This document shows, in pieces, positions 1-52,955 of a stretch of 64,000 nucleotides of DNA; the first letter of the stretch is position 1; every line of letters begins with the position of its first letter. The stretch lies in contig NZ_CP019436.1 of NCBI RefSeq assembly GCF_002201895.1, positions 1,153,867 to 1,217,866 of the forward strand, given 5' to 3'. The notes under the pieces are model-generated. The model saw nothing but the letters and a program-made list of their open reading frames with translations. It was not told the DNA's origin and made no database searches. The DNA comes from Methanopyrus sp. SNP6 (GTDB lineage: Archaea; JAADCQ01; Methanopyri; Methanopyrales; Methanopyraceae). The translations under genes were made by a program, and so were the position numbers.

Positions 1-1023
<1,023 letters not shown>

Positions 1024-32261: not shown

Positions 32262-32599
32262 CAAGGCGGCGGCGGGCACGCCGAGGGGTGGATCCGGCCC
32301 CCCGGGCCCGGCACTCCCCAGACCGACCTGCCTCCGGCGACCCCCGAGCGGCCGCGGGTCCGGGGTGGGCTGCTCCCTCTCGGGCCTGACCCGGTGCCCC
32401 GGCAAAGGCGGTGGCGCGCCGCCCTCCGGCGGCGGCCCCCGCCACCCCGGGCCCCCGGGGGGCCGGAGGGTCACCGGTCGGATCCGGGGAGCCGGTACCC
32501 CGAGGGACCGGACCGCCCCCTCGGCTTCGGCCCCCGCATGAGGCGGATTTCGGGTTACAGCGGACCGCCAGCCCGCCGGCCTAGCCCGCCGCCACCCGG
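32262..32599 (-). ncRNA. Signal recognition particle (7S) RNA
   Basis: A very GC-rich non-coding block on the minus strand. Near its 5' end the RNA reads GGGCTAGGCCGG and, in 32548-32559, TGTAACCCGAAA, which match the Alu-domain of archaeal SRP RNA. The SRP54-binding helix 8 motif GTCAGG...GAGGGAGCAGCC lies at 32366-32392. The two ends pair (GGCGGCGGGC with GCCCGCCGCC, ending at 32265) as helix 1. The exact ends are estimates from pairing and from a TATA box at 32616-32629. Length near 338 is slightly long for the family. It scaffolds SRP19 and SRP54 for co-translational targeting to the membrane. Confidence 0.9.
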
Positions 32600-50460: not shown

Positions 50461-50487
50461 CCACAGTCCCCCGGGTGACTGATCTTG

Positions 50488-51345
50488 ATGTTGCCGAAGA
50501 CCCTCAATCCTGTGGTGAAGGATAAGTACGTTGAGAGCCTCGAAGAACTGGCTGACTTGATCGCCAGCGCGGATCTAAGGACCGGAGTTGTCAGAATCAC
50601 CGCACGGTCCGGTGACGCCCTGCTCGACGCATTCATCGTGGTCCTCAACGGTAAGGTAGTCTACATTGAAGTCGAAGAGGTGCGGACCGGAGAACGATGG
50701 CGAGGAGAGGAAGCGCTAGAACGCCTGAAGGAGATCTTGAGTGTAGTTGAGAAAGGCCAATCTGCCGTCGTCGACGTGTTCGAAGCCTCGGAAGAGGACG
50801 TCGAGATGATCTTCGAATACCACGGTATACGTCCGAAGGAGATCGAACTGGATGAGGTGCTACCGGTCCCCGTACTCGAAACCGATATCGAGCTCGAGAC
50901 CGAGAAGCTCGAGGGTGCCGAGAAAGAGGAAGCCCCGGAGGAAACCGAGATCGAGGTAGGAGAAGTCGAAGAAGCTTACGATGAGGAACCGGAAGCCGTA
51001 GAGTCCTACGATTTCACGGAAGAACTCGAGAGAGAATCGGAATCACTATCGCGGGAGGAGATACTGAAGAAATACGGGATCAAGGAGCCTGACGAATCCT
51101 TCGTCAAGAACATCCTGAAGGAGTTCACCGGAGTGGAGACGGACCTTCGAGAGCGGATCTCGAGAGTCCTTCGTAGCTACGGCATAACGGTATTCAAGGC
51201 GGAAGGTATCGTCGAAGTCCTCCTGGGAGACGATACCGACGAGGAGGATGTCGTCGAGACAATTCGGGACTTCATGAAGGATGTCGGCGTTGACGAATTG
51301 GAGGTCCGCACGTACCGGCCCGAGTGGTTAGGGAGAAAGATTTAA
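50488..51345 (+). CDS. Uncharacterised acidic protein (DUF2226-like)
   Basis: A 285-residue protein. An N-terminal alpha-beta domain (about 1-110, including a GVVRITARSGDALLDAFIVV strand pair) resembles archaeal DUF2226. A very acidic linker (about 130-190, runs of glutamate) follows, then a C-terminal domain of about 90 residues with HTH-like helices. ATG 50488 is chosen over TTG 50485 on spacing from GGGTGA. Its stop lies inside the TATA element of the downstream tRNA gene. Confidence 0.65.
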   Translation: MLPKTLNPVVKDKYVESLEELADLIASADLRTGVVRITARSGDALLDAFIVVLNGKVVYIEVEEVRTGERWRGEEALERLKEILSVVEKGQSAVVDVFEASEEDVEMIFEYHGIRPKEIELDEVLPVPVLETDIELETEKLEGAEKEEAPEETEIEVGEVEEAYDEEPEAVESYDFTEELERESESLSREEILKKYGIKEPDESFVKNILKEFTGVETDLRERISRVLRSYGITVFKAEGIVEVLLGDDTDEEDVVETIRDFMKDVGVDELEVRTYRPEWLGRKI

Positions 51346-51346
51346 G
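51339..51346 (+). promoter_or_regulatory. TATA box of the tRNA-Arg gene
   Basis: GATTTAAG, centred about 34 bases before the mature tRNA 5' end, implies a short 5' leader of roughly 8 bases. The element overlaps the TAA of the preceding gene. Confidence 0.5.
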
Positions 51347-51375
51347 GTGACCCAGTCGGGTTAGGATTTGGGCTC

Positions 51376-51450
51376 GGGCCGGCAGCTCAGTCTGGACAGA
51401 GCGCGGGCCTTCGGAGCCCGTGGTCCCGGGTTCAAATCCCGGCCGGCCCA
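51376..51450 (+). tRNA. tRNA-Arg (anticodon UCG) with genomic C at position 8
   Basis: Full cloverleaf: acceptor GGGCCGG/CCGGCCC, D stem GCTC/GAGC, anticodon stem CGGGC/GCCCG around the loop CTTCGGA (anticodon TCG), variable region TGGTC, T stem CCGGG/CCCGG with loop TTCAAAT and discriminator A at 51450. The base between acceptor and D stems that should be U8 is C (51383), so this tRNA should be a substrate of the CDAT8 deaminase. CCA is not encoded and there is no intron. Confidence 0.95.
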
Positions 51451-51493
51451 CACGTATCATCGTTACGGTATCCGTAACAATGGGGTTTTCGGG

Positions 51494-51661
51494 TTGGACG
51501 ACGAACTCCGGAAGCTCGTAGAAGCAGGTCCCCTCGAGGTCGTGATCGCGAAGCTGGAGGAGATACTGATGCGCCTTGACCGTCTTGAAGCGAAGATCGA
51601 CGAGACTCTCGCTCGTATCGAAAGGTTGGAACGGGAGCTGAGGAAGGATGAGCGTGAATGA
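51494..51661 (+). CDS. Small coiled-coil protein
   Basis: A 55-residue helical protein with clear heptads (KLEEILMRLDRLEAKIDETL, then ARIERLERELRK). TTG 51494 with a GGG run upstream. The frame is open back into the tRNA gene but only this part is protein-like. It overlaps the Mur-ligase gene by 14 bases, implying coupling. Likely an oligomerising partner; no family known. Confidence 0.6.
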   Translation: MDDELRKLVEAGPLEVVIAKLEEILMRLDRLEAKIDETLARIERLERELRKDERE

Positions 51662-52955
51662 GCTTCCCTTCGACAGCATCGCCATCATCGGGCTAGGAGT
51701 GGAGGGACGTACCTGCGCGATGAGGTTAGCGGAACTGGGACTCAAGATCTACGCCTCCGATATCAGGGAAGACGTCGACGTCTCATCGCTCGAGAGGCTT
51801 CCCAACGTCGAGGTAGAGCTCGGTCATCACGACCTCGACAGAATCTGCGAGTGTGACACCGTATACTTCTCGCCCAGTATACCGAACGACGCGGAGATAG
51901 TCCGCGAGGTCCGCAACGTCGGGGTTCCGCCACTCGAGGAGCTCCTCACATGGCCAGATTCCTCCGAATTCGTCGTGGTCAGCGGAACCAACGGCAAAAC
52001 AACGACAGTTCATATGATCAACTACCTACTCGACAAACTCGGTATCGATCGGGAGGTCGGTGGAAACGCCGGAGGGGGATTCGACGGGTACGCTACTCTC
52101 TACGTGCGAGCCGAGTTGGCACGTCCAAAGGTCGTGGTCTGTGAAGTGTGTGACATGACGCTGGATTATTTCTCCGACCGAGCTCCACGGTACGATGTCG
52201 CAGTCTTCTTGAACCTGGGTTTGGATCACCTGGACTACCACGGTTCGATCGAGCGGTACGCGGCCCGTGCGGCCCGTTTCTGTGATCGGGCTCGAGAGAC
52301 GGCGATTGTCAAGTGTGATGGAGAGGAACGGAAGGTAGTCGAAAGGATGGAGGGCACTCCCAGATGTTATGATAGGTTAGACGTGGAGGTCGACATACCG
52401 CTCCGAGGGGAGTTCTACAGGCTGGACGCCAAAGCCGCTCTGCTGGCCGTCGCCGAGATAACCGGTGAATCACCCGAGGAGCTGGCCCAATTACTCTCGG
52501 ACTTCACCGGTGTCCCCGGGCGCATCATGGAGTACAGGCTTGGTGAAGGTCGGCTGGTCATCGGGAAGACCGACAACCTCTCCGCCCTGAGAGCCGTCTT
52601 GAAGGACTACGGACCCCTAGACGTCGTCTTCTGGGGGACTCCGAGGCCGGGCGAAGATTACCGGATCGAAGGAATCGGCCGAGCCCTCCGAGAGGCGGAA
52701 GTGGAACGCGTTTACGTGTTTCCCGGCCTGTCAGAGGAGACCGTAGACGACGTTATCGAGGAGCTCGCGAGCTCCGGAATTGAGGCGTCCCGGGTAGAGA
52801 CTTCCGAGGTCGCCTCGAAGGCCTTGGAACTGGCGCGACGTGGTCGGGCTGTGGGAGTGCTCGGAAACGGACAGAGTGTTATAACCTCGATACAACACGA
52901 TGTCGAGCATGCGGTACGCTTTTTGACCGCTGGATCGGAGCGATCTCGGGGATGA
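51648..52955 (+). CDS. MurD-like Mur ligase family protein
   Basis: A 435-residue ATP-dependent ligase with the three Mur domains: an N-terminal Rossmann-like domain (IIGLGVEGRTCAMRLAELGL), the central ATPase with P-loop GTNGKTTT near residue 112 and NLGLDHLDYH near 192, and a C-terminal domain. Two roles are plausible in this organism: coenzyme F430 synthetase (CfbE), a Mur ligase homologue acting in F430 synthesis, or a pseudomurein peptide ligase. The MurD-like N-terminus and absence of other cell-wall ligases nearby make CfbE attractive, but sequence alone does not decide it. Confidence 0.8.
   Translation: MSVNELPFDSIAIIGLGVEGRTCAMRLAELGLKIYASDIREDVDVSSLERLPNVEVELGHHDLDRICECDTVYFSPSIPNDAEIVREVRNVGVPPLEELLTWPDSSEFVVVSGTNGKTTTVHMINYLLDKLGIDREVGGNAGGGFDGYATLYVRAELARPKVVVCEVCDMTLDYFSDRAPRYDVAVFLNLGLDHLDYHGSIERYAARAARFCDRARETAIVKCDGEERKVVERMEGTPRCYDRLDVEVDIPLRGEFYRLDAKAALLAVAEITGESPEELAQLLSDFTGVPGRIMEYRLGEGRLVIGKTDNLSALRAVLKDYGPLDVVFWGTPRPGEDYRIEGIGRALREAEVERVYVFPGLSEETVDDVIEELASSGIEASRVETSEVASKALELARRGRAVGVLGNGQSVITSIQHDVEHAVRFLTAGSERSRG

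Follow-up and report, generated by a model that had tools for sequence, protein, structure and literature searches.

At position 8 of tRNA a uridine is found almost universally across life. Editing of a C8 to this U8 has long been known and is published for Methanopyrus kandleri AV19, in which the deaminase CDAT8 edits 30 of 34 tRNAs (Science 2009; RNA-Seq 2013; PMC3695527, PMC11802342); the exceptions without C8 are Gln UUG, Pro GGG, Pro UGG and Thr GGU (PMC11802342). RNA-Seq in AV19 placed the C-to-U change after 5′ and 3′ end processing and before intron removal, and the enzyme tolerates introns in the D-loop (PMC3695527). In the accepted model CDAT8 is a dimer, in which one subunit binds the acceptor stem and CCA end with its ferredoxin-like and THUMP part, and the deaminase of the second subunit gets to C8 (PMC11802342, PMC9957541). 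The descriptions of C8 editing we found in the literature concern M. kandleri AV19 only, and the main text of the report on KOL6 and SNP6 mentions neither editing nor CDAT8 (PMC5504354). SNP6, a heat-loving methanogen, is a sister species of AV19, distinct from it and in the same genus. Its genome is 1,421,521 bp long (KOL6 and SNP6 were reported at 1.43 Mb; PMC5504354), and that of AV19 is 1,694,969 bp (PMC3695527).

The DNA analysed here, which we refer to as the window, is a 64-kb stretch of SNP6 covering bases 1,153,867-1,217,866 of the genome. ARAGORN found a single tRNA in it, a tRNA-Arg with anticodon UCG at 51376-51451, and the Rfam family RF00005 matched the same gene (63.8 bits, E 1.6e-11). 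Read directly, the acceptor stem (GGGCCGG/CCGGCCC) forms all seven of its pairs and is followed by C8 and A9. The D-stem is GCTC/GAGC, the anticodon stem CGGGC/GCCCG with the loop CTTCGGA, and the T-stem CCGGG/CCCGG with the loop TTCAAAT; the discriminator is A and CCA is not encoded. The cloverleaf is complete, and where a gene-encoded U8 would stand there is a C, just as the original prediction had read it. That prediction also held that the gene sequence alone would not fold correctly, which stands for the tertiary U8-A14 contact but not for the cloverleaf, which is intact. A single-sequence fold at 37 °C did not return the cloverleaf and paired C8 within a lengthened acceptor helix, a weak hint that the tRNA may misfold. 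The possible promoter element is identical in the AV19 copy and overlaps the stop codon of the upstream neighbour, a DUF2226 gene; a MurD-like ligase gene lies downstream, and an archaeal SRP RNA is encoded elsewhere in the window (Table 1).

Table 1. Positions, within the 64-kb window, of the features discussed in the text.
Feature	Position	Strand	Description
CDAT8 gene	166..1002	-	278 aa; 3g8q E 1.3e-168; PF00383 E 3.4e-6; P66-C-L-Y-C70
Archaeal SRP RNA	32270..32591	-	RF01857, 140.3 bits
DUF2226 gene	50485..51345	+	upstream neighbour of tRNA-Arg(UCG)
Possible TATA/boxA element ATTTAAGG of tRNA-Arg(UCG)	51340..51348	+	inferred from position
tRNA-Arg(UCG) gene	51376..51450	+	75 nt, no intron, C8, no encoded CCA; ARAGORN, RF00005, direct reading
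C8, predicted CDAT8 deamination site	51383..51383	+	direct reading; C8 in UCG tRNA of four other Methanopyri
MurD-like ligase gene	51648..52955	+	downstream neighbour of tRNA-Arg(UCG)

We compared the locus with AV19 and with three further Methanopyri genomes, G002, G003 and G004. The tRNA-Arg(UCG) locus is syntenic with that of its C8 ortholog in AV19. The gene is 75 nt long in SNP6, G003 and G004, and 76 nt in AV19 (region 954300-955100), where the anticodon stem has an extra C on its 3′ side (GAGCCCCGTGG). Either AV19 has changed here or the 2002 sequence is wrong at this base, and because of the extra C the AV19 ortholog is an inexact stand-in for the SNP6 tRNA. The UCG tRNA of G002 carries C8 on the body of a tRNA-Arg(UCU) (acceptor GGGCCCG/GGGTCCG). 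It looks as if it had been remoulded through duplication and an anticodon change, or it may stem from contamination of the MAG.

The window also encodes the predicted editor. The predicted protein matched the crystallised M. kandleri enzyme, PDB 3g8q, over 278 of 278 residues and shares 94% identity with the AV19 protein along its full length, and its match to PF00383 lies above the Pfam family cut-off. The zinc and catalytic residues H44, A45 and E46, P66 and C67, and C70 are unchanged in the five species, and HAE...PCxxC is the motif described for CDAT8 (PMC11802342). A Pfam search at 0.001 returned no THUMP hit; the ferredoxin-like and THUMP C-terminal half is covered by the full-length match to 3g8q, which is described as THUMP-containing. 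We therefore identify the protein from its sequence as the CDAT8 ortholog, with an intact active site and a predicted activity as tRNA C8 deaminase. The original prediction had named it so, had placed the editor and a predicted target in one window, and had stated that CDAT8 edits position 8 in Methanopyrus; all of this agrees with our results and with what is published for AV19 (PMC3695527, PMC11802342).

A survey of all tRNA genes for C8, also proposed in the original prediction, was run on 153 genes from five Methanopyri genomes, using targeted regions and parsing each tRNA by its acceptor and T-arm. C8 is present in 31 of the 34 standard tRNA genes of SNP6 and T8 in the other three, giving CDAT8 candidate C8 substrates in its own genome. 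The corresponding C8/T8 counts were 30/4 for AV19, 24/3 for G002, 24/2 for G003 and 29/3 for G004, the last three sets being incomplete because the assemblies are fragmented. Since the AV19 figures reproduce the published count and exceptions exactly, the parser is validated. The tRNA-Sec genes, detected separately in the five genomes with RF01852, were left outside the counts because their architecture differs; in all five a C and then an A come straight after an apparent 9-bp acceptor stem. Introns were seen as well: tRNA-Glu(UUC) keeps two introns, one of them in the D-loop, in each species where it was found, and intron presence varies by species in tRNA-Asn, tRNA-Cys and tRNA-Val(GAC).

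T8 is retained by Gln(UUG), Pro(UGG) and Pro(GGG) in every genome where these were found, and the UCG tRNA has C8 in all four other Methanopyri, counting the UCU-type gene of G002. Among 34 groups a single one switches, tRNA-Thr(GGU), which has C8 in SNP6, G003 and G004 and T8 in AV19, and was not found in G002. The most parsimonious account is a single change from C to T on the lineage leading to AV19, making the AV19 gene a natural revertant. The three constant T8 tRNAs have the T-stem CCCGG/CCGGG, as against CCGGG/CCCGG. We rejected T-stem orientation as a rule for T8 because tRNA-Asn shares CCCGG/CCGGG and has C8.

With C8 in 31 of 34 SNP6 tRNA genes, its occurrence in tRNA-Arg(UCG) is not due to chance. 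That the C is a sequencing error, or the gene a dead copy, has a negligible probability: the independent assemblies of AV19, G003 and G004 hold the orthologous UCG gene with C8, every stem of the SNP6 gene is intact, and no other UCG tRNA was found in the SNP6 genome. Chance or error as the source of C8 was rejected on the 31 of 34 genes and on the assemblies of four genomes. It is also very improbable that C8 is simply tolerated, with an unedited tRNA-Arg(UCG) functioning as it is and CDAT8 serving other tRNAs. The cloverleaf would indeed be complete even without editing, but the C8 is common to nearly the whole tRNA set, CDAT8 is conserved with its active site intact, the AV19 enzyme is reported to accept 30 different tRNAs, as well as a micro-helix, as substrates (PMC3695527, PMC9957541), and the T-stem of tRNA-Arg(UCG) is the same as in most other C8 tRNAs.

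We consider it very likely that the SNP6 tRNA-Arg(UCG) is transcribed with C8 and deaminated to U8 by CDAT8, as in AV19, from which we infer the editing, its order and its mechanism. The tRNA would be transcribed carrying C8, and the CDAT8 of the same genome would deaminate it to U8 once the acceptor stem has matured. The THUMP domain of one subunit of the dimer would grip the 3′-CCA end while the partner subunit's deaminase reaches C8, and with the resulting U8 the mature tRNA could make its usual tertiary contact with A14. The window holds nothing at odds with the accepted dimer model. On this basis tRNA-Arg(UCG) is one of 31 predicted CDAT8 substrates in SNP6. All five Methanopyri genomes have ThiI-family PP-loop genes, so that an edited U8 might later be thiolated.

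Each of the five Methanopyri genomes carries full-length CDAT8. None of 389 other archaeal genomes does; weak matches in these fall mostly over the C-terminal, THUMP-containing half. A scan of a wider genome collection for relatives outside the class returned three Methanopyri MAGs only, and a scan of viral contigs found no CDAT8. We searched 394 genomes with the pattern CAGCTCAG..GG..AGAGC, which joins C8 to a common D-arm and covers the AGCTCAG D-arm class only. The five Methanopyri accounted for 60 matches. A further 17, all single, were spread over the 389 other archaea, and none of these 17 was a tRNA by ARAGORN or inspection. The T8 version of the pattern is present in 383 of the 389 other archaea and occurs once in Methanopyri, in AV19, where the sole T8 tRNA of that D-arm type is tRNA-Thr(GGU). 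Among the genomes searched, C8 tRNAs of the AGCTCAG D-arm class and full-length CDAT8 are restricted to Methanopyri. As both occur in all five of these genomes, the trait dates back at least to the ancestor they share.

Why C8 persists is a separate question. One proposed reason is that it raises GC content and thereby DNA stability (PMC9957541, PMC11802342). The GC content is 61.2% in AV19 and 57.7-58.0% in KOL6 and SNP6 (PMC5504354). In the T-loop, T60 is present in 152 of 152 genes and A59 in 147 of 152, with G in the other five. The explanation fits poorly because the higher-GC AV19 has fewer C8 genes and sites 59 and 60 stay A and T; the one additional C8 of SNP6 speaks against it weakly, the difference being a single site. 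An account that fits the editing of tRNA-Arg(UCG) is neutral: CDAT8 made C8 equivalent to T8, and C8 stays for lack of mutation. We regard this account as about as likely as not. The change of Thr-GGU to T8 on the AV19 branch, with no evident harm, agrees with it, and so does the comparison within the same tRNAs, where 1 of 31 C8 columns is variable and 13 of 96 D-loop pyrimidines are (Fisher p 0.19). Against it stand the fourfold sites of CDAT8, just 35-39% identical between SNP6 and each of G002, G003 and G004. In these three wide pairs we observed 0 C8 changes per pair where ~8-10 of 23-29 columns were expected, an expectation that takes C8 and T8 as interchangeable at the fourfold C/T rate, uses one gene (CDAT8) as its yardstick and is applied to pairs that share branches.

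C8 is conserved significantly more than fourfold sites and not significantly more than D-loop pyrimidines. Since the latter also change little, tRNA genes are slow overall, and we do not claim selection on C8 itself, which is suggested. We think it doubtful that selection actively maintains C8 throughout Methanopyri, as opposed to its being just tolerated. If it did, a deamination step following end processing would have a use of its own, for example as a check on acceptor-stem maturation, and selection would explain 30 of 31 C8 columns and three of three T8 columns frozen against near-randomised synonymous sites.

The additions made here are modest: SNP6 joins AV19 with 31 predicted substrates, C8 tRNAs and CDAT8 are seen throughout the genus, the Thr(GGU) gene of AV19 emerges as a natural revertant, and exclusivity was checked. 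The closest described system is AV19 itself, with an enzyme 94% identical to that of SNP6, the same tRNA set, the same constant exceptions (Gln(UUG), Pro(UGG) and Pro(GGG)) and a syntenic tRNA-Arg(UCG) locus. It differs in having 30 and not 31 C8 tRNAs, tRNA-Thr(GGU) being T8 in AV19 and C8 in SNP6, and in its tRNA-Arg(UCG), whose anticodon arm is longer by one C. The 4-thiouridine synthetase ThiI resembles CDAT8 in targeting position 8 with ferredoxin-like and THUMP domains; it has no deaminase domain and thiolates U8, whereas CDAT8 deaminates C8. TrcP of Vibrio cholerae likewise deaminates a C-encoded tRNA base to U (PMC9553926). Its U goes on to pseudouridine, whereas the product of CDAT8 stays U8.
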